This document shows, piece by piece, positions 1 to 39,628 of a stretch of DNA of 64,000 bases (positions are counted from its first letter, which is position 1; every line of letters starts with the position of its first letter). Origin of the DNA: Sporichthyaceae bacterium (GTDB lineage: Bacteria; Actinomycetota; Actinomycetes; Sporichthyales; Sporichthyaceae); the NCBI GenBank assembly GCA_036493475.1, contig DASXPS010000083.1, positions 1 to 64,000 of the forward strand, written 5' to 3'. Position numbers and translations under genes: made by a program. Under the pieces are notes generated by a model. It was not told where the DNA came from, did not search any database, and worked only from the letters and a program-made list of their open reading frames with translations.

Positions 1-350
1 GCCACGGCGTCCCCCTCGCCGTCGGGCGCACCCGGCGCACCGTCACCCCGGGCCAGTGGTCGGCCCTGGTCATCCGCGACACCGGCTGCATCTTCCCCGG
101 CTGCGACCGCCCCGCGGCCTGGTGCCAGGCGCACCACCTCATCCCATGGGAAGAGGGGGGTCCCACGGACCTGGACAACCTGGTATTGCTCTGCGACCAC
201 CACCACGACACGATCCACCACCACGACTGGGAAGCCGAACTCGGCGCAGACGGCCACCCCCAAGTGATCCCACCACCATGGATAGACCCGTCACGAACAC
301 CACGGCGCAACCAGCACTGGCGACCACCGCCCGTTGGCGTGTTCACCTGA
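1..350 (+). CDS. HNH endonuclease, 13E12/DUF222 type (3' end only)
   Basis: The gene runs in from the left edge; the open frame begins at base 3 and stops with TGA at 348-350. The visible 115 residues hold a textbook HNH module: a first cysteine pair in CIFPGCDRP, then QAHHLIPWEEGG, then LDNLVLLCDHHH, which supplies the metal-binding histidines and the second cysteine pair. This arrangement is typical of the C-terminus of the actinobacterial 13E12 repeat (DUF222) proteins, a large multicopy family with a probable nuclease role. The N-terminal DUF222 part lies outside the window. The stop overlaps by 8 bases the convergent gene ending at 343. Such proteins are scattered through actinobacterial genomes, so this does not by itself mark a mobile element. 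Confidence 0.85.
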   Translation, partial: HGVPLAVGRTRRTVTPGQWSALVIRDTGCIFPGCDRPAAWCQAHHLIPWEEGGPTDLDNLVLLCDHHHDTIHHHDWEAELGADGHPQVIPPPWIDPSRTPRRNQHWRPPPVGVFT

Positions 351-1311
351 GATGACCGGCGAGCCGACCGTTGTAGGTCTCCATCAGCGCCTCGGTGCGC
401 ACGGGCTTGCGGGTCTCACCCTCGCGGAACGCCCAGCCCTGGATGCGGCGATGCCCTTCGGGGAGATCGGCGCGGATCGGGTCGCGGTAGCCCGCGGGGT
501 GGGCCTGCCAGATCCAGGTCTCGCCGCCGGGACCGGCGTAGCGGACCTCGACCGGGTAGTCGTCGGAGATCCGCGCGGAGACCTCGAAGTCGCGGAAGAT
601 GACCGGCGGGCCGTCGGTGCAATGGACGATGACGATGCAGAAGTTGTCCGTGCCCCACACGAGATGGCCCGCGTGGATGGTGCCGTCCTCGAACTCGGTG
701 GCGAAGGCGACCCACGCGCCCTGCAGATCGGTGATGTAGGCGCTGCGGATGAAGTCGACGTCGGCCGGCATGTGCATCGAGTCGTGGAAGAACAGGCCGC
801 TGACGTCCTGGCCCTTGATGGTGCCGCTGCCCTTGAACAGGCGCGAGGTGTAGAGGAGCGGCTCCTTCTCGTCCGGCATGAAGAACTGGATCGCCGGGCC
901 GACGAGTTCGCCGGTCAGGTCGAGGAAGCCGGACTCGGTCCAGCGAAAGCGCGGGCCGTTCGTGGCGAGGATCGGCGAGCCGTCCGCGCGCCAGGTCCCG
1001 GTCCAGCCGTCGCGCGTGCCGGACTGCACCGGCCCGACCTCCGCGGCCTCACCCTGCGCCGCCCACCGGAAGTCGACCGGCGTGCTCGCCTCGGACAGGT
1101 GCATGCGCCGGCTTTGCGTCTCGTACGAGCCGCGGATCGGCCAGTAGTAGGTGCCGTCCTCCGCGCGCAACGTGCCGTATGCGTAAGCCATGTTCATCGG
1201 CAGGCCGAGGATCGGGTCCCACTGGCTGTGCCCGTCCGGCTCGACCATCCCGCCCACCGGCTGGAAGCCGAAGCGGCCGTTCGGACGGACGGGGTGGATG
1301 GTGTCGGCCAT
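343..1311 (-). CDS. conserved protein, probable beta-barrel (lipocalin/CrtC-like), paralogue of 3343-4323
   Basis: 322 residues, no signal peptide and no membrane helix. It is rich in Trp, Tyr, Gly and Asp in short alternating stretches, as expected of an all-beta fold. Its C-terminal half aligns with the protein at 3343-4323: both contain AT-E-x-DGTI, a GP-containing strand, a W-W pair and a terminal GETRK-V-T motif. It resembles the uncharacterised families related to hydroxyneurosporene synthase/AttH barrels found in steroid- and terpene-degrading actinobacteria, where they are unassigned. The start ATG lies 10 bases after the mycofactocin-type SDR stop, so the two genes form one minus-strand transcript. 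The function is unknown; binding of a hydrophobic substrate or intermediate is an inference. Confidence 0.75.
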   Translation of the reverse strand: MADTIHPVRPNGRFGFQPVGGMVEPDGHSQWDPILGLPMNMAYAYGTLRAEDGTYYWPIRGSYETQSRRMHLSEASTPVDFRWAAQGEAAEVGPVQSGTRDGWTGTWRADGSPILATNGPRFRWTESGFLDLTGELVGPAIQFFMPDEKEPLLYTSRLFKGSGTIKGQDVSGLFFHDSMHMPADVDFIRSAYITDLQGAWVAFATEFEDGTIHAGHLVWGTDNFCIVIVHCTDGPPVIFRDFEVSARISDDYPVEVRYAGPGGETWIWQAHPAGYRDPIRADLPEGHRRIQGWAFREGETRKPVRTEALMETYNGRLAGHLR

Positions 1312-3342: not shown

Positions 3343-4323
3343 TTGGTCACGCTCGTCCCGCAGCGCCGTGGTGACTTCAACCACCAGACGGTCGTGTCCG
3401 CGATCGAGGTCAACTTCCCGGACATGCTCCCGACGTGGACCTACGGCCCGCTGGTGCAGGACGGCCTGTACCTCTACGGCTCGTTCCGTACCGCCGACGG
3501 CCGCCTGCAGACGCTGCTGCGCAAGTGCGCCGGCGAGCTCTCCTATGGCCTGGTGCACAACATCAGCAACGGCACGTTCCTGGCGACCTCGCCCCGTCAG
3601 GCGGAGGCCTTCCGCGGTGGGTCGGTCCGCTTCAGCGCCGACGACGACCACTTCCGCATGCACGTGGGCATGGCGCGTTCGCCGGGTGAGCCGTTCTCGC
3701 TGGAGCTGACCCGCGAGGCGACGAGCACCAAGGTCGTGTGGGACGAGGGCGAGATCCTGCACCTCGAGGGCTTCATCGTCGGCAACGCGGGCGTGCAGAT
3801 GTACGACCCGATGCGCGACGGCGGAAATCTCTACTGCTCCTACATGATCCGCTCGCGCGGACACATCCTCGGCGAGGAGGTCGAGGGTTTCTTCGGCTTC
3901 GACCAGCAGCACCTGCGCCCCGGCACGATCTGGCGCACCGCGCCGTACTTCAATGAGCTCGAGATCGCCTGGCACACCGCGACGACCGAGTACGACGACG
4001 GCACCATCGAGGTCGGCCAGATCTGCCACGGTGGCAAGGACTGGGGCTTCGCCGTCATGCTCAACAACAACGGTCCGTTCAAGCTCACCACCGACGTCAC
4101 GTCGAAGATCACCTTCGGCGACGATGAGTTCCCGAAGAAGGTGGAGTACCTGATCGACGGCGAGGAATGGGACTGGGTCGCCTCCGCGGACGGCACCATG
4201 CCGGCCTACGCCAAGGACGCGACCTACCGTCCTGCCGACGGCACCACCACGCGGCGCGGGGAGACCCGCAAAGTCGTCACCTCGGCCGGGTGGCTCGACG
4301 CCTTCAGCGACGGCCGCTCCTGA
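3343..4323 (+). CDS. conserved probable beta-barrel protein, paralogue of 343-1311
   Basis: 326 residues, soluble and all-beta in character. Shared features with the protein at 343-1311 are the ATTEYDDGTI motif, the EEWDWVAS strand and the terminal RRGETRKVVTSAG motif. The start is taken as TTG at 3343, with AAAGGA about 8 bases upstream; no ATG or GTG fits better. Its TGA overlaps the ATG of the P450 (TGATG), so the two proteins are translationally coupled. Having one copy on each side of the divergent promoter suggests related roles for both arms. The role is unknown; a lipocalin-like binding protein or a hydratase-type barrel are possibilities. Confidence 0.75.
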   Translation: MVTLVPQRRGDFNHQTVVSAIEVNFPDMLPTWTYGPLVQDGLYLYGSFRTADGRLQTLLRKCAGELSYGLVHNISNGTFLATSPRQAEAFRGGSVRFSADDDHFRMHVGMARSPGEPFSLELTREATSTKVVWDEGEILHLEGFIVGNAGVQMYDPMRDGGNLYCSYMIRSRGHILGEEVEGFFGFDQQHLRPGTIWRTAPYFNELEIAWHTATTEYDDGTIEVGQICHGGKDWGFAVMLNNNGPFKLTTDVTSKITFGDDEFPKKVEYLIDGEEWDWVASADGTMPAYAKDATYRPADGTTTRRGETRKVVTSAGWLDAFSDGRS

Positions 4324-6460: not shown

Positions 6461-7614
6461 CCGAGCATCCGCCCCTGCCCGGCACCCCGCCGCAGCGGCT
6501 CTACCACGGCAAGCCGATCGAGCCGTACAGGCTGGGCGTGATCGTCGACCTGCCCGAGCACCCGGGGCTGTCCGATGCCTTCCCCGACATGGCGCAGTTC
6601 GCCCTCGACGAGGCGCACGCCCGTGGTGCGGTCGAGCGTCCGGTCGAACTCGTCGTCAAGGAGGTCTTCGGACAGCCGTGGACGAACTCCTACGCGCTGC
6701 GCCGCGTCTACGCAGAGCTCGTCGAGGAAGGCGTGCTCGGCGTGATCGGCCCGTTCACCACCGACAACTCCCTCGCGGTGCTCGACCTGACCGAGCAGCA
6801 CCGGCTGCCCACGATCTCGATCTGCGGGACGTTGCACTGGCGCGGGCCGTACGCCTTCGCCATCGCCAACGGCGGCCTGGCAGACGAGCCGTACGTCATG
6901 GCGTCCTGGCTTGCGGCCAACCGGCATCGCCGTGTCGCGGTGCTGCGCGAGCGCACGCAGATCGGCGAGGAGTACGCCGAGCATTTCCGCCGTGCGATGC
7001 AGATGTACGGGATCGCCGTGGTCGCCGAGCCGCCGGTGTATCCGTCGATCCACGTCGATGAGCTTGCGGACGTGTTGGAGGAATGCCGCGCGGCGAACCC
7101 GGACGCGTTGGTGTACCTCGGCCTCGGTGGTGTGAACCAGACCGTCCGCCCGGCTCTGGAGAAGGTCGACTGGGATCCGCCGCGGATCCAGACCACGGCG
7201 TACGTCAGCGCGGGCTACAGCGCGGAGCGCGCGCGCCGCATCGAGGGCTGGGTGGGCGTCGACCAGTATCACGAGGGCAACGAGGTCTACGCCGCCGTGC
7301 TGGACCGGTTCTCCCCGCGTTATGGCTACCGGCCGGCCAACAGCGGGGGCACCTGCGGTTACGACATCGGGCACGTCTTCGGGCTCGCGCTCGGCCGGAT
7401 GCGCACCGCCAGTCCGTGGGGTCTGCGCGATGCGGTGGAGACCGTGCGCCGGCTGCCCGCATGCACCGGCGGACCGGGGACCACGATCACGTTCGGCCCG
7501 GAGGACCACCGCGGCCTGAAGGGCCCCGACTTCCTGATCCTGCGCCGCTCCGTGGACGGCCAGAGCGTCCTGGAAGGCACGGCGGCGGTGCCGGGTTGGA
7601 CCCAGCCCACATGA
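6457..7614 (+). CDS. periplasmic-binding-fold (LivJ-type) protein without signal peptide
   Basis: 385 residues with the two-lobed type I periplasmic-binding fold of branched-chain amino acid receptors: a first strand YRLGVIVDLPEHPG, then GVLGVIGPFTTDNSLAVLDL, AVLRERTQIGEEY and PDALVYLGLGG. Unlike the three lipoprotein receptors in this window, it begins MTEHPPLPGTPP with no hydrophobic segment, lipobox or twin-arginine motif, so it should be cytoplasmic. It starts at the GTGA overlap with the SDR and ends in the ATGA overlap with the epimerase. No permease or ATPase is adjacent. It might be a cytosolic sensor or carrier of the pathway substrate; this is inference. Confidence 0.78.
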   Translation: MTEHPPLPGTPPQRLYHGKPIEPYRLGVIVDLPEHPGLSDAFPDMAQFALDEAHARGAVERPVELVVKEVFGQPWTNSYALRRVYAELVEEGVLGVIGPFTTDNSLAVLDLTEQHRLPTISICGTLHWRGPYAFAIANGGLADEPYVMASWLAANRHRRVAVLRERTQIGEEYAEHFRRAMQMYGIAVVAEPPVYPSIHVDELADVLEECRAANPDALVYLGLGGVNQTVRPALEKVDWDPPRIQTTAYVSAGYSAERARRIEGWVGVDQYHEGNEVYAAVLDRFSPRYGYRPANSGGTCGYDIGHVFGLALGRMRTASPWGLRDAVETVRRLPACTGGPGTTITFGPEDHRGLKGPDFLILRRSVDGQSVLEGTAAVPGWTQPT

Positions 7615-9017
7615 GAGTGCTCGTCACCGGCGCGAGCGGCGCTTTCGGTGCCCCGCTCTGTGCAGCGCTCGCCGCCGGGGGAGTCGACGTCATCGGGATG
7701 GCCCGGCGTCCTCCGGCGACCTTCCCGGCCGGCGCCGAGTTCGTCGCCGGTGACATCAGGGATGCCGACGCCGTCGATGCCGCGGTCGCGAAGGCTGACC
7801 GTGTCGTGCATCTGGCCTGGTTCATGGGTGTCGCGAAGGACCGCGAGGGCGCCGAGCGGATCAACCTCGGCGGTACCCGCAATGTGATCGCGGCGGCCCG
7901 CAAACACGGCGTGCAGAAACTGATCTTCTCCTCGTCGGTGACGGCCTACGGCGTGACTCCGGGCCACGGGGTCTACCGCGAGAACGACGAACGCCGGCCG
8001 GACCCGCAACTGCAGTACGCGCACCACAAGATGGTGGTCGAGGACGAGTTGCTGGGCTGCGGCATCCCGTTGGCGATGGTGCGGCCCAATATCGTCATCG
8101 GCCGCAACGTGTCCTCGATGTCGGTGGCGATTCTCGCGACGCCGGTTCTGGTGGGCGTCCGCGGCCAGGCGCACCCCTTCCAGTTCGTGCATCAGGACGA
8201 CGTGATGCGCTTCCTCTACGCCGTCACGACCGGGGAGCGCACCGGCCTGGTCAACCTCGCCGACGCGGCGACCACGAGCCTGGAACAGGTCGGGGAGATG
8301 CTGGGGCGCCGGGTCGTGCGGCTGTCCGCGGGTGTGCTCGGGCGCAGCATGGATCTGATGTTCCGGTTCGGATTGAGCGACGTCGACAGCGTCGCCCTGG
8401 ACATGCTGAAGGAGTTCCCGGTCGCGGACACCACGGCCCTGCGCGAGCAGTGGGGCTTCCGGACGTCCTGGTCGATGCAGGACGCGTTGCGCGACACCCG
8501 TCGGGCCATCGCCGGGGTCAACCTGCTCGGCACCAAGCAGGTACGGCGCCGCGACGCCCCGGTCCTGCCGCCCATCGGGGGGGCCGCCGGGGACATCGCG
8601 CGGCTCTCGCCGGCCGTGCTCGCCGCTGTTCATCGCGAGCTGCCGGCGGACTCGGCCCTGACTGCGGACCTCCTCTCCCGCGCGGCCGGTGGATGGCAGG
8701 CGCGCCCGAGCCACGACACCCGCAGGGTGGCTGGGTGGGCGGCGACCGAGACGTCGTTGCTACTCGGCGCCCTGCCCACGGATCTGTCCGTGGAGACGGC
8801 CGCGGCGCGGCTTTCCCAGCTCGGCGATCTGCTGGTCGACCTGGTCGCGCTGACGCAGGACGAACCCGCGGTGATCACCCGGGTCGAGGCCGTCGCCCCG
8901 GCGCTGTCCGGCTTGGTCGCTGCGGTGGGAGCAGGCGCAGACTTGCCATCGCCGTGGTCCGCGCCCCTGGCGGATGTGGTGCACGCCGCCCGGACCTGTG
9001 CCCGGGCATGGAACTGA
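7611..9017 (+). CDS. NAD-dependent epimerase/dehydratase with unassigned C-terminal helical domain
   Basis: 468 residues. Residues 1 to about 300 form an extended SDR: GASGAFGAPL nucleotide loop, SSSVTAYG, and the catalytic YAHHK. Residues from about 320 to the end (LLGTKQVRRRDAPVLPP onward) are an Ala/Leu-rich helical extension that matches no domain I recognise. A similar epimerase core begins the 879-residue fusion at 33981-36620. Such enzymes often act as 3beta-hydroxysteroid or dihydroflavonol-type dehydrogenases, but the substrate is unknown. The ATG overlaps the preceding stop (ATGA). It is the last gene of the plus-strand operon; a 16-base gap separates it from the convergent aldehyde dehydrogenase. 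Confidence 0.82.
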   Translation: MRVLVTGASGAFGAPLCAALAAGGVDVIGMARRPPATFPAGAEFVAGDIRDADAVDAAVAKADRVVHLAWFMGVAKDREGAERINLGGTRNVIAAARKHGVQKLIFSSSVTAYGVTPGHGVYRENDERRPDPQLQYAHHKMVVEDELLGCGIPLAMVRPNIVIGRNVSSMSVAILATPVLVGVRGQAHPFQFVHQDDVMRFLYAVTTGERTGLVNLADAATTSLEQVGEMLGRRVVRLSAGVLGRSMDLMFRFGLSDVDSVALDMLKEFPVADTTALREQWGFRTSWSMQDALRDTRRAIAGVNLLGTKQVRRRDAPVLPPIGGAAGDIARLSPAVLAAVHRELPADSALTADLLSRAAGGWQARPSHDTRRVAGWAATETSLLLGALPTDLSVETAAARLSQLGDLLVDLVALTQDEPAVITRVEAVAPALSGLVAAVGAGADLPSPWSAPLADVVHAARTCARAWN

Positions 9018-26735: not shown

Positions 26736-28312
26736 CGCTCGCCGACCCGCTGCACGACGGGGACGCGACGAAGGCCGCCTGGACGACCCGCAACGCCGCC
26801 GAGGCGATGCCCGGCATCACGACGCCGCTCGGTTGGACGGTGTGGTACCCGCCGTGCGAACTCGCGCTGCGCGGCGCGTTCTGTGATCTGGGTGGGTTGC
26901 GCCGCGATGACGTCGTGCTGCCCGCGGCGCTCGACGAGCGATTCGTCGGCGTCTTCTATGGTCGGTTCGCCGGCAACATCGACCTGATGCGACGCATGGG
27001 TGACCAGATGCCGGGGTCGTCCGGGGCCGCGGTCGAGGAACAGTACTTCGCCTCGGCGCGGGACATCCCGAGCAGCCGTGACCTGACCCGGCTGCCGCTG
27101 GTGGTGGGCAAACTCCCGTACAGCGCCTGGCGGGCGCGCCGCCGGATTCGCGAGCTGGCGTCGGTGACCGAGGCGTGGTGGGCGGCGAGCGTCGTGCCCG
27201 GCGCGGTGCCCGACGGGGATGGCACCCGGGAGGTGTTGCGGGACGCGATTTCCCGGCTCGAGGTCATCATCCGGGCGCACACGATCGTGTCGATGATCGG
27301 GCAGGGCACCTTCGAGCAGGTACGGCGACTGTGCGAGTCCATCCAGGCCGAGGGCCTTGAGTTCGAGCTGACCACCGCGCAGGACGCGGTGCACGAGTCG
27401 GCGTTGATCAATGACCTGTGGGCGGTGGCGCACGGGCGGCTCGCCATGGCGGAGTTCCTTGCGCGGCACGGCTTTCATGGCCCGGCCGAAGGACAGCTCG
27501 CCGGCAAGTCGTGGCGCGAGGACCAAGCCCCGCTGCGGGCGTTGCTCGATGCCTACCGGGCCAGGGAAGCGCCGCTGCAGAGCAGTGGTGCCACCCAGCG
27601 GGCCGCGGCCGAGACGAAGCTGTTCGGCGCGCTCGGTCGCGCTGGGCGGGTGCGGGCCCGACTCGTGCTGCGACTGGCGCGCAGCTACATCCCGCTGCGC
27701 GAGGTCGGCCGGGCGACCTTTCTCAAGGCGTTCGATGTCGCTCGCGCGATGTGCCGGCAGATCGGCTGCGAGCTGCACGCCGATGGCGTCATCGACGATG
27801 CCGCGGACGTGTTCTATCTGACGCTGGACGAGGTGCTCGCCACGCGCGGCGGCGACCTGCGTGACGTGGTGGCCGGGCGACGCCGCACCCGTGAGCAGTA
27901 CCTGACCCTCGAGCTACCCGACGCCTGGATCGGGCCGCCGGTCGCGACCCCGATCACTGCTACCGACGACGGTGACGTCGGCTCCGTCGAGGGGATCGCC
28001 GGCATCGGGGTGAGCCCGGGCGTTGCCGAGGGGCGCGCGGTCGTCGTGCTGGACCCGGCCGATCCCGACGATCTGGCGGACGGCGACATCCTGGTCTGCC
28101 GGACCACTGACCCCAGCTGGGCGTCGTTGTTCTTCCTGGTGTCGGCGTGCGTGATCGACATCGGCGGAGCGATGAGCCACGGCGCGATCGTTGCCCGCGA
28201 GCTCGGCCTGCCCTGCGTCATCAATACCCGGGTCGGCACCCGCGATCTGCGTACCGGCGATCGGATCCGGGTGGATGGCGCGGCCGGGACGGTGACGATC
28301 CTGTCCCGTTAG
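26732..28312 (+). CDS. PEP-utilising enzyme, swivelling-domain protein without ATP-grasp
   Basis: 526 residues. The C-terminal domain has the phosphohistidine swivelling-domain signature: GIGVSPGVAEGRAVV, then DIGGAMSHGAIVARELGLPCV with His at about 483. The preceding 370 residues are helical and include DVFYLTLDEVL, a motif also found in the C-terminal part of PEP-synthase-like enzymes such as rifampin phosphotransferase. The ATP-grasp domain that normally charges the histidine is absent, and nothing similar is coded nearby. It shares the swivel and the FYLTLD motif with the 879-residue fusion at 33981-36620. GTGA overlap joins it to the barrel protein; it is last in the operon. Confidence 0.78.
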   Translation: MTLADPLHDGDATKAAWTTRNAAEAMPGITTPLGWTVWYPPCELALRGAFCDLGGLRRDDVVLPAALDERFVGVFYGRFAGNIDLMRRMGDQMPGSSGAAVEEQYFASARDIPSSRDLTRLPLVVGKLPYSAWRARRRIRELASVTEAWWAASVVPGAVPDGDGTREVLRDAISRLEVIIRAHTIVSMIGQGTFEQVRRLCESIQAEGLEFELTTAQDAVHESALINDLWAVAHGRLAMAEFLARHGFHGPAEGQLAGKSWREDQAPLRALLDAYRAREAPLQSSGATQRAAAETKLFGALGRAGRVRARLVLRLARSYIPLREVGRATFLKAFDVARAMCRQIGCELHADGVIDDAADVFYLTLDEVLATRGGDLRDVVAGRRRTREQYLTLELPDAWIGPPVATPITATDDGDVGSVEGIAGIGVSPGVAEGRAVVVLDPADPDDLADGDILVCRTTDPSWASLFFLVSACVIDIGGAMSHGAIVARELGLPCVINTRVGTRDLRTGDRIRVDGAAGTVTILSR

Positions 28313-29069: not shown

Positions 29070-30929
29070 CTACAGCTCGCGCAGCACGAGGGTCGTCGGT
29101 CCGGTCAGCCGCACGCGCCAGGTGGCGCGCCCGTCGTGGCCGGCGGTCACGGTGCCGTCGCCGGCCAGGTACGTCGCGCCCGGCCGGAGGCGGTCCAGCA
29201 CGAAGTCGGTGCTGGCCTCCCGAGAGCCGGCCGGAACGTCGAGGACGAAGCTGACCGTGTCCCCGTTCGGTTGTGCCGCTCGGACGACGACGTCGGCACG
29301 CGGTGCCTCAACCAGGCGCGGGCCGGTGTAGCGGGTCAGCCCGTTGACCGCCGCGTGCAGCCCGCCGGGGACGTTGAGACGTCCCATCGCGGTCATGTTG
29401 CGGGTGAAGCTGGACAATCCCCGGCGATTTCCGGTGTCGTCCGCCGGCCAGTTGCGGTCGATCGTGCGCAGCGTCGCCTCGACGATGGCGGGTTCGTTCA
29501 TCTCGCGGGCCGAGGCGGCCAGCACCGAGTAGGCCGTCGCTTCGTTGCGGCGGTAGTTGCCGGGATCGAGATTATCCAGCGGCGTGGTGGTCAGCCGGGC
29601 AAACCCGTCGTCGTCGATGCGCACGAAGCGGTGCTTGTAGATCGCCCACTGCCGGGCCGCGATGTCGGGGTACAGGCCGTTGAGGAGGAACGTCACGTAC
29701 AGGTCCGACGCGCGCGCCGTGCCCGGCAAAAACGCGCCGAGATGCTTGGAGCGCACGACCTTGAGCGACCCGTCGTGCTGCGTGAACTCGCGCTCCAGCG
29801 CCTCACGGAAGCGGGGCCGCAGCTCGGCGCCGAAGTCCGAACCGGTGGCGTTGTCGTGGGCGGTGATGCCGCTCAGTGCGATCACGTTGCAGATCAGGTA
29901 GGTCCAGTTGGGCTCGCACGGATACGCGCAGACGTAGGACGCCGACATCTGCCGGGCGATGTGGCCGGCGATGGAGTCTGCGTCGTAGACGTAGTGGTGC
30001 GAGCCGTCGTCGAAGGTGAGCGCGCCGGGCGCGCAGAAGCGTCGATCGCCGGTGGCGCCTTCGTAGAGCCCGAGCGAGAGCAGCAGGTAGCCGCTGAGCA
30101 TCACGTTCTCGCGGTGGATCGGATCGGGATCCCAGCGCAGGTTGCCGACGAGGTTTTCGTAGCGCCAATAGGTCCAGACCTTCGGCGCCAGGTGTTTGAC
30201 GATGAGGTTGCGTTGCGCCTCGCCGAGCCAGCCGTCGAAGGCGGTATAGCGGCCGTGGTGGGCGAGCGAGAGCGTCCAGCCGGCCGTGGTGAGTTGGTAT
30301 CGCCAGGCGGCCTCGCGGAATTGGTCGATGGTGGTGAACCCGTCGAAGGAGTCCAGCGGTTGCAGGGCCAGATCGGCCAGCGGTCGGACGGCCGCCAGCT
30401 CGGCGTCGGTCGCCGGGGCCGCCGCGCCGATGGTGGGCTCGGGCCAGTGCACGGACGACAGCACGCGATTCAGTTCACGGCCCCGGGCGCGAGCCGCGTC
30501 GTGCCGAATGCGATCACCGATGCCGGCGGCGCCAACGAGCACCGCGACGGCGACGGGGACGGCGACCCGCAGGTCCCCGGATCGGCCGTCCGCCGCGACC
30601 GCGGAGAGCACCGCGGCCGTGGCCCACACCAGCGGCGGTCCCAGCACGATCCCGACGAGTAACCAGCCGAACAACGCGATTGCGAACAGGACGAGGGCGA
30701 CGGGGGTCAGCCACCAGAGGCTGCCCATCGGCAGCCCGGCGCCGGGCAGCGCAAGCCCGACGCCGAGCGCGGACAGGCGATCGCCGCCGAGCACGATCAG
30801 CGCGAGTGCCAGGACCTCGACGCCCGCGAGGACCGTGACCGCGCGGCGCACGATCCGGGCGGTGTTCGGCCCGCGGGCCGGTGCCTCGGGGTCGAGCAGG
30901 GTCATCGGCCGCTCGGCCAGGGTGGTCAT
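29070..30929 (-). CDS. membrane-anchored linalool dehydratase/isomerase-like protein
   Basis: 619 residues. Residues 1-150 hold about four membrane helices. The rest resembles the linalool dehydratase/isomerase domain, an alpha/alpha barrel: KVWTYWRYENL at 250-260, DPIHRENVMLSGY at 269-281, GLYEGATGDRRF, and CEPNWTYLICN at 338-348 with Cys338 and Cys347. In the characterised Castellaniella enzyme the domain interconverts linalool, geraniol and myrcene. The actinobacterial membrane-bound forms have no known substrate. The ATG overlaps the stop of the SDR (TGATG). Its presence is the strongest hint here that the region deals with isoprenoids. Assignment rests on recalled motifs and needs a profile search. 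Confidence 0.75.
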   Translation of the reverse strand: MTTLAERPMTLLDPEAPARGPNTARIVRRAVTVLAGVEVLALALIVLGGDRLSALGVGLALPGAGLPMGSLWWLTPVALVLFAIALFGWLLVGIVLGPPLVWATAAVLSAVAADGRSGDLRVAVPVAVAVLVGAAGIGDRIRHDAARARGRELNRVLSSVHWPEPTIGAAAPATDAELAAVRPLADLALQPLDSFDGFTTIDQFREAAWRYQLTTAGWTLSLAHHGRYTAFDGWLGEAQRNLIVKHLAPKVWTYWRYENLVGNLRWDPDPIHRENVMLSGYLLLSLGLYEGATGDRRFCAPGALTFDDGSHHYVYDADSIAGHIARQMSASYVCAYPCEPNWTYLICNVIALSGITAHDNATGSDFGAELRPRFREALEREFTQHDGSLKVVRSKHLGAFLPGTARASDLYVTFLLNGLYPDIAARQWAIYKHRFVRIDDDGFARLTTTPLDNLDPGNYRRNEATAYSVLAASAREMNEPAIVEATLRTIDRNWPADDTGNRRGLSSFTRNMTAMGRLNVPGGLHAAVNGLTRYTGPRLVEAPRADVVVRAAQPNGDTVSFVLDVPAGSREASTDFVLDRLRPGATYLAGDGTVTAGHDGRATWRVRLTGPTTLVLREL

Positions 30930-31755: not shown

Positions 31756-32745
31756 TTACCAGGCCCGCGCCGAGGTTCCTGCCAGAACGGCGTGGCGGAG
31801 GTCCGTCGGGTCGCACAGCAGCGCCCGCAGTCCGTGGGCACGGCGCAGCCGCAGGTGGCTGTCCACTTCCCAGGTGAACCCCATGCCGCCGTGGTTCTGG
31901 ATGTCGTCGCGGGCGTTGGTGACTGCCGCGTCCGCCGCGACCAGCAGCGCGCTCGCGGCCAGTTGGGCCGCGTCGGCGTCGGTCAGGGCGGCCAGCAGGC
32001 ACAGCTGCGTCGCGGCGTCGGCCCGGGTGGCCATGTCGGCGCAGCGCTGTTGGACCATCTGGAACCCGCCGATCGGGCGACCGAACTGCTCCCGTACGGA
32101 CGTGTGGGCGACGCTGCCCGCGACCGCGGCCTGCGCGATCCCGGCCAGCTGCGCGGCGACGAGCAGTATCGCCAGCGTCCACGGCCGTGTTCCCTCGACG
32201 TAGCACTCGACGTCGGAGTCGAGGGTGACCAGCGCCGGCCGGGCGCCGGGGTCCATCGAGTCCGGTGTCGCCGCGATGGCACCGGCAGGCAGCGCGCCCA
32301 GCAGCGCGGCCCGGTCGGGGGAGAGCACGAGCCAGGCCCCGGCGTCCTCGCGATCGACCGTCCGGAACGAACCTGACGGTTCATCAGTAGTGAGTATGCC
32401 CACGGGGAGCCCGGCCATCACCTCGGCCAGCAGCGGGCTCCCGGTGGCGTGCGCGACCGTCGCGGCGACAGTGGTCCCCAGGTACGGGCCGGGCGTGAGG
32501 GTGCGCCCGAGAGCGTGATGGATCAGCGCGAGTTCGCCGGTGCCCAGGCCGAGGCCGCCGGCGTCCTCGGGGATCGCCAGGCCGAACCACCCCTGGGCGG
32601 TGGCCTTGTCCCAGACCCCGAGGTCGCGCACCGGACCGTCGGCCCGCGTTCGCAACGAAGCGGCGGCCGCCACCGGGTCCAGCAGGTCGGTCGCCGCGTC
32701 GATGATGGCGCGCTGCAGGTCGTCGGGAAGCAGGTCGAGGGGCAT
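31756..32745 (-). CDS. acyl-CoA dehydrogenase, short partner subunit
   Basis: 329 residues, shorter than a standard 380-residue acyl-CoA dehydrogenase. The C-terminal helices end with NHGGMGFTWEVDSHLRLRRA, a hallmark of the mycobacterial FadE steroid-type dehydrogenases, but the N-terminal and middle beta domain is reduced and the usual FAD-contacting motifs (W-TSG type) are missing. A four-base gap separates it from the full-length subunit upstream. In mycobacteria such adjacent pairs assemble into alpha2beta2 enzymes acting on bulky CoA esters; the same is inferred here. Confidence 0.85.
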   Translation of the reverse strand: MPLDLLPDDLQRAIIDAATDLLDPVAAAASLRTRADGPVRDLGVWDKATAQGWFGLAIPEDAGGLGLGTGELALIHHALGRTLTPGPYLGTTVAATVAHATGSPLLAEVMAGLPVGILTTDEPSGSFRTVDREDAGAWLVLSPDRAALLGALPAGAIAATPDSMDPGARPALVTLDSDVECYVEGTRPWTLAILLVAAQLAGIAQAAVAGSVAHTSVREQFGRPIGGFQMVQQRCADMATRADAATQLCLLAALTDADAAQLAASALLVAADAAVTNARDDIQNHGGMGFTWEVDSHLRLRRAHGLRALLCDPTDLRHAVLAGTSARAW

Positions 32746-32749
32746 GTCG

Positions 32750-33943
32750 TCACCGCCCCCGCGGGAGGCCGAGGACCCGCTCGGCGACGATGCTGCGCTG
32801 CACGTCCTTGGTGCCGGCCGCGATTGTCGTCGCGAACAGGTAGAGGTAGTCGTGGACCCAGGGGCTGCCCTCCTGCAGTCCCTCCAACCCGCGCAGGTCG
32901 ACCGCAAGCGCGCTGACGCGCTGCTGCAGCTGGGAGAAGAGCAGTCGCACCATCGAGGCCTCGGGGCCGGGCAGCGTGCTGCGCGCGTTGCGGCTGACCA
33001 CGGCCAGGGTCATCGCGAGGACGGCGTGGGCCTCGGCCCGGGCGGTGGCCAGGCGCTCGGCCCACCCGGCGTCGCAGATCAGCGTCCGGCCGGCGCGGTC
33101 GGTTCGGGTACGGGCGAGCTCGACGAGTTCGTCGACCCGGGCGACCAGCTCGACCTGCTCGGGCAGGAAGCCGGTGCCGCGCTCGAAGGACAGCGTGGAC
33201 ATCGCGACGCGCCACCCGTCGTCGATCGTGCCGACAACGTTGGACAGCGGGATGCGGACGTCGTCATAGAAGACCGCGCAGAAGTCGTCATGCCCGGTGA
33301 TCGTGGTGATCGGGCGTGCCTCGATGCCCGGGGTATCCATCGGGCACACGACCCAGGTGATGCCGTCCTGCCGCCGGGCCCCGGTCGAGGTGCGGACCAG
33401 CAGCTCCTGCTGCTGCGCGTGGTGGGCGTAGGACGTCCAGATCTTCTGCCCGTTGACCACGAGGTGGTCACCGTCTACGGCAGCGCGGGTCGACAGCCCG
33501 GCCAGGTCGCTACCGGCGCCCGGCTCGCTGAAGCCCTGGCACCAGATCTCCTCGCCGGACAAGATCGCCGGCAGGTGACGCTGCTTCAGCTGCTCGTCGG
33601 CGCAGGCAATCAGCGTCGGGCCCGCGTGGGCGTTGCCGACGAAGCAGACGCCGGTCTCGGTCGGAGCGCCGGCCCGGGCGTACTCCGAATACCAGATGAC
33701 CTGCTGCACCAGGGAGAGCCCGCGGCCGCCGTACTCGGCGGGCCAGCTGATGCCGGCCCAGCCCGCGTCGAACTGGCGGCGTTGCCAGGCGCGGTCGAAC
33801 TCCACCATGGCCCGGCCGTCGTACGGGCGCCGCTCGCGCGGGGCGTTCTCCGCCAGCCAGGTGGCGACCTCGTCGCGGAACGCCCGCTCCCCGGCGGTCA
33901 GCGTGAGGTCCAACAGCGCTCCCGGTTCGGCGGAGTTCGACAA
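32750..33943 (-). CDS. acyl-CoA dehydrogenase, full-length subunit
   Basis: 397 residues. Visible motifs are WCQGFSEPGAGSDLAGL, the NGQKIWTSYAHHA loop contacting FAD, and FERGTGF in the region of the catalytic base. The end, AGTKDVQRSIVAERVLGLPRG, is typical of the FadE subunits that pair with a smaller partner. It should oxidise an acyl-CoA at the alpha-beta bond and pass electrons to ETF. The TTG at 33943 gives the full N-terminus; the promoter box ends just before it, so a start some residues further in is also possible. It shares a transcript with the short subunit. Confidence 0.9.
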   Translation of the reverse strand: MSNSAEPGALLDLTLTAGERAFRDEVATWLAENAPRERRPYDGRAMVEFDRAWQRRQFDAGWAGISWPAEYGGRGLSLVQQVIWYSEYARAGAPTETGVCFVGNAHAGPTLIACADEQLKQRHLPAILSGEEIWCQGFSEPGAGSDLAGLSTRAAVDGDHLVVNGQKIWTSYAHHAQQQELLVRTSTGARRQDGITWVVCPMDTPGIEARPITTITGHDDFCAVFYDDVRIPLSNVVGTIDDGWRVAMSTLSFERGTGFLPEQVELVARVDELVELARTRTDRAGRTLICDAGWAERLATARAEAHAVLAMTLAVVSRNARSTLPGPEASMVRLLFSQLQQRVSALAVDLRGLEGLQEGSPWVHDYLYLFATTIAAGTKDVQRSIVAERVLGLPRGR

Positions 33944-33980: not shown

Positions 33981-36616
33981 CTAGCACTGCTCGGTGGGCG
34001 CCTCGACGGGAACGGGGTCGCTGATGACGCTCACCCGGCCGGTCGAGCCGTCCAACTCGACGACCTGACCGGTCCGCAGTCGATGGCTCGCGCCGGGAAC
34101 GGCGACAACGCAAGGAATCCCGCATTCACGCGCGACCACGGCCGCGTGCGACATCTGGCCACCGGTGTCGGTGAGCACACCGGCGGCGAGCCCGAAGTAG
34201 GGGGTCCACCCCGCATCGGTGAAGGCGGCCACCAGGATCTCGCCCGGCTCCAGATCGATGAGGTCATCCGGGTCGAGAATGCGGACCGTCCCGCGCACGA
34301 CCCCGGCGGACACCCCGATGCCGGAGGCAGTGTCACCGCTGCGCAGTCCGTCGTCCGGGGCTTCGGGGACCCAGTTGCCGGAGAAGAATGCCGGGACCCG
34401 CACCGTGCGGAGCAGGTCGCGCTGCGCACGTCGAAGCGTGACCTGCTCACACGCATCCGCGGGGAGGACGAGCAGCTGATCCAGCGTCAGATAGAACGCA
34501 TCCTCGGGTGCATTCAGCAGCCCGGCGGCCGCGAGTCGACGGCCGCGTTCGAGCGCGGTCAGGCGGTAGGCATGCGCGCCGCGCACCCAGGCGTCGCGGG
34601 CGAGCTCCCGGGAGTGGTGCAGCCGATGGCACCGGGCCGCGATCGGACGCAGCGGTGCCCTCACCGACACGGGCGCGTCGAAGGCTCGGGCCGGTGCCTG
34701 TGCGGTCTTGGCCACCACGTCGAGAAACCGGTGCGGCGCGATGGCGAAGACCTCGCCGGCCAGTTCGAGCTCGCGCGGCCCGCGGTGCCCGTGCTCGGCG
34801 ACGGCGGCGCGCAGTCGACCGGTGAAAGCCGAGTGCGTCCGGTCGAGGACATCCAGTGCCGCATTCCCCGCACCGAGGGCAGCGGTCACCGCCTGCCGCA
34901 GCGCGGGGTCGGCCCGCAGCTCACCGGCCAACGACGTAGTGGCACGCAGCGCGGCGGCGCTCGCCAGGTCGCCGTCGTCGGCGCGGTCGGTCATCAGCGA
35001 CCCCAAACCGTGGTCGGACAATGCCCCGGTCACCGACGCGACGAACGCGGCCGCGTTGGACGACACGGCGGACGCGTCGACGCAGATGTCGTGGCTGAGG
35101 CTGAGGCGACCGAGCAGTTGCTCGTCGGTGAGTTGCCGCAGCGCCGCGGGAACGCGGAAGACCCCGCGCGCCTGACGATCAACGCGCTCGGCCTCCCCGC
35201 GCACGGCCGCGATCGAACGGATCGCGGCGACGCCGATGCGGGCTTTGTCCCGGGTCGAGAGCTTGACCTGAGGCGCCGTCACTTCGACCCCACCGAAAAG
35301 CGCTTCCCAACCCGAGGACCCGGACGAGCCCGGCATCGCGTTGGCCAGTGCCAGGATCACGGACAGGTTCGCGAACACGCCGTGGCCGAAGGACGCGGTG
35401 GAGCGGTCGGCCACGAGGTCGGCGATGTGCCGGGGGAGCTTGACGAGGTCGCCCATCGCCGCACCCGCGGTGCGCATGGAATCCATGGCGAGCTCGAGAG
35501 ACAGCGGCGTCAGCGGACCCGGCATGGCCTCGGAGGTGTTGGCCGAGGTGAAGGCCGGGATGGCCGGATCGACCAGCGAGTCGAACTCCCCGTTCAGCCC
35601 GGCCGGCCCGGCCGGGTGCATGCCCGGCGACGGTGGTAGCTCCGGATGTACCCGGCCGCGATAGCCAAAGGGCGAACGCCGCGGCAGGGCACGCCCGAGG
35701 ATGTAGGTCCGCCCGGCGCTGGCGCGGGCGAAGTCCTCGACGCACTCCCGCGAGGTCCAGCCGCACCGGAAGCCGAGCTCGTCCAGTCGCGGGGTGTCGA
35801 CGATCGGGAACCACAGCATGCCGCGGAAGCTGCCGGGGTCGAGGTCGCCCAGGCCGGTCTTCCAGAGCCCGGCGACCAGCTTCTCCAACGTGCTGCGGGA
35901 GAGTTCGACGTACCGGCGGCCGAGGATCTCGGCGATCTCCCGCATCGCGACGGTGTCCGGCGCGGCCAGATTCACCGGCCCGGACCAGCGCTCGCCGACA
36001 GCGCGGGCGAAGAACCGCCCGACATCTTCCGGATGCAGGAACTGCATCGTGTTCGTGTAGCCGCGCACACCGGGCAGGACCGGTGACGCGAAGTTCTCCG
36101 CGATGATGTTGTCCGCCTGCCGCCCGATCACGGTGCCGGCGCGGATCATCAGTGCGTCCAGGCCGCTGGCCATGATCAGCTGCTCGGCCTCGAGCTTGTG
36201 CACCGAGTAGGCGCTGTCCGGGTCGGGACGCTGGGGTGAGCTCTCCAGCAGCCGCGGCGGATTGTCCTGGTGGCAGCCGTACGACATGACGCTGGAGGCG
36301 AAGACCAGCCGTTTCACGCCGTGCCGATTCATCGCATCGATGACGTTTCGGGTGCCCCCGATGTCGATGCCGTGGGTGATCGAGACGTCCTTGTTCGGGT
36401 ACAGGTTCCACGCCAGGTGGACCACGGCGTGCATGCCCTCGACGGCGTCGCGCACCTTCCGCACGTCGCGGATGTCGGCGGCCCGGTAGTCGGACATGCC
36501 CGGCGGCAGCCGGTCGGGCCGGGTGCGGGACAGCCCGACGACCTCATGGCCGTGCATGGCCAACCGCCGGACGACGTCCCGCCCGAACACCCCGGACGCG
36601 CCGGTGACCAGAACCT

Positions 36617-36620
<4 letters not shown>
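33981..36620 (-). CDS. fusion: NAD-dependent epimerase + helical region + PEP-utilising swivelling domain
   Basis: 879 residues. Residues 1 to about 300 are an extended SDR: GASGVFGRDV, SSVMSYG and catalytic YSVHK. The middle is helical and contains a Ser/Ala/Met-rich part (SEAMPGPLTPLSLEL), similar to the opening of the 26732 protein (AEAMPGITTPLGW), then FYLTLDQLL. The end is a swivelling domain: GIGVSAGVVRG and DTGGQMSHAAVVARECGIPCV with His near 826. As in the 526-residue homologue the ATP-grasp domain is missing. GTGA overlap joins it to LivF. This architecture is unfamiliar to me; a phosphotransfer or dehydratase role coupled to the epimerase cannot be stated from sequence. Confidence 0.8.
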
Positions 36621-37309
<689 letters not shown>

Positions 37310-37310
37310 G

Positions 37311-39197
37311 TCAGGCCTCCTGCAGCCGGGCGTGGACCGGGCCGCCCTTGGCGCGCAGCTCGTCGCGCGAACTGCCCAGGGCGCCCGGTCCGAGCGGGCT
37401 TGCCGTCGCCGACCGGCCGGTGAGCAGCACGGCAAGGATCGCGGCCAGGCCGAAGCCGGGCAGGAAGTACTGGGTGGTGTTCGGGTCGCTGATGTAGCCG
37501 TACGGCAGCGTCAACATGGCCGCGGCGAACAGCGGTGCGCTGACCCGGCCCCGGCCACTGATCGCCAGCACCGAAAGCCACAGCAGCGACGACAGCGGGA
37601 AGAAGGCCTGGCTGGACGTCGACAGGCCCTGGGCACCGAGCAGGGCACCGGCGATCGCGGCCATCCACGCCGAGATGCAGAACACCAACACCTTGGTGAC
37701 GTTGACGCTGAGGCCGGCGGTGGACAGCGCCGTGGGGCTGTCCGCCATCGCCTGCAGCAGGCGGCCCAGCCGGCTGCGGCTGATCGCCACCACCAGCCAC
37801 AGCGCGGCCACCGCAATGGCGAGCAGCACGTAGTAGAAGGCGCGATCGGAGCGGAAGCCGTCCGGCCGGGCCACCGCCCGGTTGTTCAGCTTCCCGAACA
37901 TGAACGTCGTGGTGTACAGCAGTTGCTGGACGAGCACACCGAACCCGAGGGTCGCGAGCGCGAGGTAGAGCCCGGACAGCCGGATCGCCGGCAGTGCCAC
38001 CAGCGCGCCGGCCGGGACCGCCACCAACCCGACCCCGATCAGCGCGAGGGCCCACGGCACGCCGGAGTTCTGCAGGTGGTGGAAGGTCGTCCCGCCGAGC
38101 GCCGCGAACGCGGCATGGCACAGCGAGATCTGGCCCGACGTGCGGACCAGCAGATTCAACGAGGCGAACAGCACCACGAACGCGGCGGCGCCGGCGTAGA
38201 GCGGCAACCGCGCGCCGACCAGGTCGGGCACCAGGATCGCGCCCACCAGCGCGATCGCGAGCAGGGGGAGCTTGGCCGGGCGCGGAATCGGATCCAGTGG
38301 CGGGGGCAGCCGCCGGTCGGCGCCCGCGGCGCCCAGCCGGCTCGTCCGGACCGCGATCAGCACTACCACCAGGACCAGGAAGGGCACCGACCCGGGCAGC
38401 CCGGACAGCGACTCGTAGGTGGCGGTCCACTTGCCGACCAGCGCCTGCGCGACGCCGATGCCCAGACCACCGAGCAGCGTCAACGGCAGGCTGCGGAACA
38501 GCCCCACCGCCGCGGCACCGAACGCCTGCAGCACCAGCAGGCTGAGGAAGAGCGAGTCCAGGCCGGCGGTCGGCGCGATGAGGATTCCGGACAGTGCGGC
38601 GAACACCGATCCGGTCACCCAGGCGGTCCGCCGGACCAGCGCGGTGCTGGTACCGGCCAGCGCGAGCAGGTCGGGGTTGTCGACCACCGCGCGCATCTGC
38701 GTGCCGAGCGCGGAGAACCGGAAGAAGGCGACCAGGCCGCCCACCGTGCCCAGCGCGATCAGGAACGTCGCGAGTTGGTCGTAGCCGACGACGATGCCGG
38801 CGAGCGGGAATCCGTGCGTGGGCAGGAAGCCGGGGAAGACCAGCGGCGTCGCGCCGTAGTGCGCGATCAGCAGGCCGACGATGCCGATCTGCAGACCGAT
38901 CACCGCAACGACCTTGTAGGCGACCGTGGTCTCGGCCAGGCGCCGGGCCAGCAGTTCCAGCAGCAAGCCGAAGACCGGCGCCACCAGCCCGAGGACGACG
39001 ATCAGCGACAGCCAGGCCGGCAGACCCTGCTTCTCCCGGACTTCGAAGTACGCGTAGGCGCCGAGTGCGCCGGTCGAACCGTGGGCGAGGTTGAACACGC
39101 CGCTGGTGACGTAGGTCAGCGTCAGGCCGGTCGCGGTGAGCGCGTAGACCGCGCCGCTGACCAGGCCGACGACGAGGACGGCGAGATAGGCGTTCAC
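37311..39197 (-). CDS. fused LivH-LivM branched-chain-amino-acid-type ABC permease (locus 2)
   Basis: 628 residues, same design as 20899-22788. The LivH half opens VVGLVSGAVYALTATGLTLTY and contains GVFNLAHGSTGA. The LivM half has RTSGQISLCHAAFAALGG and LPAIRLSGLYLALATLGFGV. The many hydrophobic segments imply about 17-18 helices. GTG 39197 overlaps the upstream small membrane protein by GTGA, the same junction as in locus 1. It is expected to pass the ligand of the tandem lipoproteins at 41305-44303. Confidence 0.92.
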   Translation of the reverse strand: MNAYLAVLVVGLVSGAVYALTATGLTLTYVTSGVFNLAHGSTGALGAYAYFEVREKQGLPAWLSLIVVLGLVAPVFGLLLELLARRLAETTVAYKVVAVIGLQIGIVGLLIAHYGATPLVFPGFLPTHGFPLAGIVVGYDQLATFLIALGTVGGLVAFFRFSALGTQMRAVVDNPDLLALAGTSTALVRRTAWVTGSVFAALSGILIAPTAGLDSLFLSLLVLQAFGAAAVGLFRSLPLTLLGGLGIGVAQALVGKWTATYESLSGLPGSVPFLVLVVVLIAVRTSRLGAAGADRRLPPPLDPIPRPAKLPLLAIALVGAILVPDLVGARLPLYAGAAAFVVLFASLNLLVRTSGQISLCHAAFAALGGTTFHHLQNSGVPWALALIGVGLVAVPAGALVALPAIRLSGLYLALATLGFGVLVQQLLYTTTFMFGKLNNRAVARPDGFRSDRAFYYVLLAIAVAALWLVVAISRSRLGRLLQAMADSPTALSTAGLSVNVTKVLVFCISAWMAAIAGALLGAQGLSTSSQAFFPLSSLLWLSVLAISGRGRVSAPLFAAAMLTLPYGYISDPNTTQYFLPGFGLAAILAVLLTGRSATASPLGPGALGSSRDELRAKGGPVHARLQEA

Positions 39198-39628
39198 CGG
39201 CCGCAGATTCCGCAGCCGGCGGCGTCGTCCGGGGCCGGTTCGATCGGCTTCCCCGCGAGCAGCGGGCACTCCGGCAGGTGTGCGCGCGTCATGCCCGGCG
39301 CGCGTACCAGGCCGCCGCTCGGCACCGACATGTCAGCCACGGCTTCGCCGGCCCGGGTCGGCCGGGCCAGCGCCGCGAACTGCACCGCACGTCGCGCGGC
39401 GACGCGCCGCCGCGCCCGAGCGACGACGCGGCCGGACAACAGCCAGTACAGCGCCACCGCGGCCGTGGCGACGTCGAGCCAGGGCAGCTGCTTCGATGTC
39501 CGACCGTGGCCGGCGGCCTGATACCAGCACACGGTGAGCAGGATCAGGCAGGCCCCGCCGGCGGCCGCGACCAAGCGGGCCTCGCGCGGCAACCAGGGCA
39601 GAGCCGGGGTCCGGGTGGGGGCGGCCAT
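39194..39628 (-). CDS. small membrane protein with C-terminal CxxC motif (locus 2)
   Basis: 144 residues, homologous in position and design to 20435-20902. Two hydrophobic stretches lie at about 18-38 and 52-68. The C-terminal part reads HLPECPLLAGKP and ends GCGICGR, so the C-LL-G-P...CxxC set is conserved although the rest has diverged. ATG at 39628 is used; GTG at 39643 would create an 11-base overlap with the upstream gene but has no ribosome site. No known family recognised. Confidence 0.68.
   Translation of the reverse strand: MAAPTRTPALPWLPREARLVAAAGGACLILLTVCWYQAAGHGRTSKQLPWLDVATAAVALYWLLSGRVVARARRRVAARRAVQFAALARPTRAGEAVADMSVPSGGLVRAPGMTRAHLPECPLLAGKPIEPAPDDAAGCGICGR

Follow-up and report, generated by a model that had tools for sequence, protein, structure and literature searches.

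A fusion of an oxidoreductase with RPH-type acceptor and swivel domains, probably one part of a split small-molecule dikinase, in a Sporichthyaceae bacterium

A single open reading frame on the reverse strand of the window (the whole 64,000-nucleotide stretch of Sporichthyaceae DNA analysed here) encodes an NAD-dependent oxidoreductase genuinely fused to the substrate-binding and phosphate-carrying halves of an enzyme of the rifampin phosphotransferase (RPH) type. This protein is, we consider, probably the substrate-binding and phosphate-carrying part of a split RPH/HpeHI-type small-molecule dikinase, in which an SDR replaces the ATP-grasp domain and a VadK-type protein acts as donor. This reading supplies a definite mechanism for the so far uncharacterised family of Rv2047c, a protein that M. 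tuberculosis needs for growth with mycobactin; it recasts VadK, a recently described virulence-associated protein, as one half of a split kinase; and it would extend two-component dikinases beyond phenolic substrates, with an example in which ATP-grasp is replaced by an oxidoreductase. The gene, its domains and two further genes of the window are:

33981-36620, reverse strand: SDR-acceptor-swivel fusion protein, 879 aa (single ORF; Pfam, NCBIfam)
35631-36620, reverse strand: extended SDR (epimerase-like) domain, residues 1-330 (Pfam, motifs, Foldseek)
34341-35630, reverse strand: predicted RPH-type acceptor (RIF-binding-like) domain, residues ~331-760 (phmmer, AlphaFold2/Foldseek, conservation)
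34020-34340, reverse strand: phosphohistidine swivel domain, residues ~761-867 (Pfam, conservation)
26774-28312, forward strand: stand-alone acceptor+swivel protein without ATP-grasp, 512 aa, the second such gene in the window (Pfam, NCBIfam)
7614-9017, forward strand: paralogous SDR with a short C-terminal remnant and no swivel, 41% to fusion residues 2-331

The frame opens with GTG and runs for 879 codons with no internal stop. Pfam places Epimerase at residues 3-210 (E 1.3e-25) and PEP-utilizers at residues 791-861 (E 9.4e-24), and a Pfam search of the protein for PPDK_N, the ATP-grasp, found none, so that the preliminary description of one 879-residue epimerase-swivel frame lacking ATP-grasp is upheld. 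The Gly-rich Rossmann motif GASGVFG (residues 7-13) and the Tyr-x-x-x-Lys motif YSVHK (138-142; Tyr138, Lys142) are both intact and, with a UDP-galactose 4-epimerase fold, mark the N-terminal part as an extended SDR. At the other end, the swivel motif GGQMSHAAVVARE occupies residues 820-832, and the catalytic histidine, at first placed near 826, is His825 (codon at 34146-34148). A scan of genome contigs with the fusion protein returned two partial SDR matches and nothing more.

The ends of the protein were thus correctly described at the outset; what was missed is the domain between them, as well as the second acceptor+swivel gene at 26774-28312. The roughly 430 residues separating the SDR from the swivel have no Pfam match, and a phmmer search of the PDB aligns residues 671-866 to the rifampin phosphotransferase RPH-Lm, with Arg671-Glu672 (34605-34610) falling on RPH Arg666-Glu667, a pair that is essential for the second phosphotransfer and whose mutation abolishes transfer of phosphate from the histidine to rifampin (PMC4844700). 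The AlphaFold2 model of the fusion protein (pLDDT 87.8, pTM 0.91) has RPH-Lm as its top Foldseek matches in the PDB (5fbu/5fbt, E 7-9e-19, ~590 columns), followed by UDP-galactose 4-epimerases. With moderate TM-scores to RPH-Lm (0.41-0.43 on the query) and an identity of 17-18%, the match indicates a common fold and domain order and no close relationship. On the alignment and the model, the middle of the protein is predicted to be an acceptor domain of the RPH type, and the fusion can therefore be described as an RPH with an SDR in place of the ATP-grasp: the acceptor and swivel domains, the catalytic histidine and the Arg-Glu pair of RPH-Lm (5FBS/5FBT/5FBU) all have counterparts, whereas the N-terminal ATP-grasp does not and its position is taken by the SDR. 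We found no evidence for rifampin as a substrate of the fusion protein.

This layout is not new; it belongs to an already known family. By hmmscan, NF004520 (PRK05865.1, 'sugar epimerase family protein') spans residues 2-866 (profile 2-837/854, E 8.5e-132), with a score of 440.8 bits that is below the equivalog cut-off of 1509, and the window protein is therefore a homologue within NF004520/PRK05865 that lies outside the equivalog. We take PRK05865 to be the family of M. tuberculosis Rv2047c, in keeping with the description of the two end domains of Rv2047c published in 2020 (PMC7058343). The preliminary statement that no characterised enzyme has this layout thus holds for biochemistry, for which our literature search found no example, and fails for the layout itself, known from PRK05865 and Rv2047c. 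The window protein shares with Rv2047c and NF004520 the SDR-acceptor-swivel order over the full profile and the lack of ATP-grasp, but differs from its pks12-linked relatives in keeping the SDR Tyr and Lys that they have lost, and its gene lies in a catabolic island instead of after pks12. A pks12-like PKS precedes the fusion gene in 10/10 pks-clade genomes checked; none is found beside the window gene. Another NCBIfam model, PRK12320 (699 aa), aligns to the fusion as well, but no further than residue 753, short of the swivel domain. The sole mention of Rv2047c in Serafini et al., a figure legend reading 'Sdh1/2 (Rv2047c-Rv2049c...)', was set aside as not relevant.

A precedent for a kinase of this kind split over two chains is HpeHI, a two-component RPH homologue in which HpeH (acceptor+swivel) works with the separate ATP-grasp protein HpeI (PMC12167813). 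HpeHI, CreHI and PpsAB all have, like the fusion, an acceptor+swivel chain devoid of ATP-grasp (PMC12167813); unlike the fusion, HpeH has no SDR. The partners differ too: HpeI is an ATP-grasp on its own, and the candidate for the fusion is an ATP-grasp+swivel protein of the VadK type. VadK (Rv1127c), a PPDK in truncated form, phosphorylates itself on His422, and the role assigned to it is that of a regulatory histidine kinase (PMC13400623). It has the swivel domain, and nothing else, in common with the fusion; it lacks the acceptor domain that the fusion has and would supply the ATP-grasp that the fusion is missing. VadK-like proteins and the fusion are thus complementary, each having the domain absent from the other.

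In the mechanism that we propose, a separate ATP-grasp protein would use ATP to phosphorylate His825 in trans; the swivel would then deliver the phosphate to an acceptor domain like that of RPH, positioned by Arg671-Glu672, where it would pass to a hydroxyl of the substrate. In the window protein the intact SDR would probably generate or alter that hydroxyl, turning a ketone or aldehyde into the alcohol or doing the opposite; the substrate would be a lipid, branched or isoprenoid, that the island handles. The donor would most likely be of the VadK type, with ATP-grasp and swivel and no acceptor. A point against the trans scheme is that VadK has a swivel histidine of its own.

The genome of the window holds nine acceptor+swivel ORFs without ATP-grasp, and a search of it for a lone HpeI-type ATP-grasp found none. 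Its PPDK_N proteins are one PPDK (C88), one RPH-like protein (C7) and three short ATP-grasp+swivel proteins, which have PRK05878 'pyruvate, phosphate dikinase' as best or second-best match (one of them below cut-off) and which we treat as VadK-like. These three are candidates for the ATP-grasp partner whose gene was earlier guessed to lie at another locus, and would act as donors; their genes lie on other contigs than the fusion, none shown near it.

An association between VadK and the fusion is evident in related genomes. We surveyed 97 genomes that belong to a single genus and found the fusion in 41. The genus is assumed to be Mycobacterium, since many of the genomes score above the PRK05865 cut-off and have a pks12-like gene. 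VadK is present in 39 of these 41 genomes and in 6 of the 56 fusion-negative ones (Fisher p 2.7e-18, computed over species that are not independent and with no phylogenetic correction); this count leaves out three full-length PPDKs, and the 39 include G543, where the VadK gene is broken by stops, and G489, where it is split over two contigs. Full RPH/PEPS-type proteins, used as a control for lineage effects, show no association (25/41 with the fusion versus 27/56 without, p 0.23). In G543 (contig C1; a 3.3-Mb genome of the mycobacterial genus) the fusion gene, too, gives two separate matches.

The two genes are also physically linked in some of these genomes. VadK stands divergently beside a pks12-fusion in G526, G507 and G535, which count as roughly one event since their PKS genes are closely related. 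In G492 a single gene separates it from the fusion, and in G559 (two fusions) and G491 the distance is 11-16 kb. In fusion-negative genomes it is found close to an acceptor+swivel gene instead, at ~150 bp in G486, 0.7 kb in G487 and 1.5 kb in G516, and G511 and G536 each have three such genes within ~5 kb of VadK; the acceptor+swivel genes near VadK in these five genomes have no PPDK_N match. VadK adjoins ATP-grasp-less acceptor+swivel genes in G491 and G397 too. No acceptor+swivel neighbour of VadK was found in G553 (fusion-negative, VadK present), and in several fusion-positive genomes (e.g. G151, G097, G386) VadK has none within ~10 kb. In G492, the gene between the fusion and VadK is that of an MmpL-type transporter (L062, 9238-11529, reverse strand).

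An alternative, which we regard as unlikely, retains the split RPH-type kinase but gives it another donor (PPDK, the RPH-like protein C7 or an unrecognised ATP-grasp) and has VadK co-occur only as a regulator of propionyl-CoA use in the same organisms. A 2026 study that does not mention Rv2047c links VadK to regulation of the methylcitrate cycle through MCS/MCD (PMC13400623), and Pks12, we infer, may draw on propionyl-CoA-derived extenders; the PPDK (C88) and C7 are at hand in the window's own genome, and recognised VadK is missing from some genomes with the fusion (G558 and G521 have no VadK match, G025 PPDK-length candidates only). Against another donor, the PEP-utilizers proteins of G386, G539 and G557 number exactly two per genome, the fusion and VadK, and the one PPDK_N that is intact there belongs to VadK, which is therefore the only candidate in these genomes if His825-type residues are charged by an ATP-grasp of the PPDK/RPH type. 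That several different acceptor+swivel genes adjoin VadK, and that full RPH/PEPS proteins do not track the fusion, likewise argues for VadK.

Published transposon data are consistent with a VadK-type donor. By TnSeq, growth with high mycobactin or with hemin + mycobactin depends on each of rv1127c (vadK), rv2047c and pks12, and growth with hemin or hemoglobin alone on none of them, a mycobactin-poisoning pattern common to the three (PMC7058343; table columns assigned in the order in which the paper lists its conditions). A role for Rv2047c in mycoketide synthesis was suggested by the authors (PMC7058343), and a 2012 review called the enzymes for mycoketide hydrolysis, reduction, phosphorylation and mannosylation unidentified (PMC3318773); phosphorylation of mycoketide by VadK and Rv2047c would fit. 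The TnSeq paper was the only one that a literature search found to join Rv1127c and Rv2047c. A strain deleted for rv2047c has been published and is attenuated. More tentatively, we suggest as a possibility that VadK-type proteins are general ATP-grasp donors, a phosphorelay hub for ATP-grasp-less acceptor+swivel kinases of which the SDR-fused ones are one branch; that mycobacterial VadK and Rv2047c form a kinase for a phospho-lipid of the Pks12 pathway (phosphomycoketide); and that the pair of the window's organism reduces and phosphorylates an isoprenoid-like alcohol during its breakdown.

Which activity is central to the family can be judged from an alignment of 23 fusion proteins from 15 genomes (mean column identity 50%). 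Four genomes are of the window's own family (its own genome with two copies, G397, G398 with three and G399 with four); the rest are G025, of another class, and ten genomes of the mycobacterial genus. The same continuous fusion is thus seen in 22 further homologues (one second copy in the own genome and 21 from 14 other genomes), which rules out a sequencing error joining two genes, and loss of the phosphohistidine is excluded as well: His825 is invariant in 23/23, as are Arg671, Glu672 and GHRGPxExE (611-619). The window protein and the catabolic-island copies keep the SDR Tyr-x-x-x-Lys; in the pks12-linked mycobacterial clade it is lost or deleted, while the kinase residues there are invariant. 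Judged by these residues, the kinase appears to be the conserved core of the family and oxidoreductase activity optional, the SDR being dispensable for kinase function in general. This rules out the coupling of redox chemistry with phosphotransfer, put forward in the preliminary description, as the core function for the family as a whole; the window protein, with both sites intact and a linalool dehydratase/isomerase homologue in its island, may nevertheless couple the two. The second fusion of the own genome (G000:C93:16392-19046, L053; 39%) adjoins Liv-type ABC genes, with another acceptor+swivel gene ~24 kb away.

The same pattern bears on a reading in which swivel and acceptor form a regulatory module and phosphorylation of His825 gates the SDR, with no small molecule phosphorylated. 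An action of VadK on metabolic enzymes has been put forward (PMC13400623), and the SDR site of the window protein is intact; invariant Arg-Glu in the 23 homologues alongside loss of the SDR Tyr/Lys in the pks12 clade is, however, the reverse of what such gating predicts, and we hold it to be improbable. That the swivel is a relic in a protein working as an SDR only, as the swivel-less SDR paralogue at 7614-9017 might suggest, is very hard to reconcile with invariant His825, Arg671 and Glu672 at 50% mean column identity.

The surroundings of the gene suggest what the proposed split kinase may act on. The neighbouring features are:

36617-37435, reverse strand: LivF-like ABC ATPase, stop overlapping the fusion start (Pfam, NCBIfam)
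37311-39269, reverse strand: fused Liv-type permease, same operon (Pfam, NCBIfam)
32750-33943, reverse strand: acyl-CoA dehydrogenase (a), directly downstream of the fusion (Pfam, NCBIfam)
31756-32850, reverse strand: acyl-CoA dehydrogenase-like (b) (Pfam, NCBIfam)
29073-30860, reverse strand: linalool dehydratase/isomerase family protein (Pfam)
3343-4323, forward strand: protein with AttH-like all-beta fold (no Pfam/NCBIfam match; fold search)

The start of the fusion gene and the stop of the upstream LivF-like ATPase gene overlap in GTGA, and the two are likely translationally coupled. The island comprises Liv-type ABC transporters, acyl-CoA dehydrogenases, acyl-CoA synthetases, a thiolase, a P450, SDRs and the linalool dehydratase/isomerase homologue, relatives of which share islands with the fusion in G398, G399, G025 and G491. 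From these neighbours, a branched or isoprenoid lipid alcohol would be the likeliest kind of substrate, a suggestion that we make with due reserve. The 3343-4323 protein, for which a PDB sequence search gave nothing at E 0.1, has a fold like AttH (2ich) and fungal Diels-Alderases, and in several genomes a homologue of it is encoded next to a fusion gene; a relative, likewise with no Pfam or NCBIfam match, is encoded at 343-1311 (reverse strand). A mycobacterial island (L065, G559:C20) contains an amidohydrolase 79% identical to that of the window together with a P450, a DAPDH-like protein, an aldehyde dehydrogenase, the fusion and VadK-like genes, which suggests that the island has been transferred horizontally. 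The SDR paralogue at 7614-9017 has 76% identical copies in G398 and G399.
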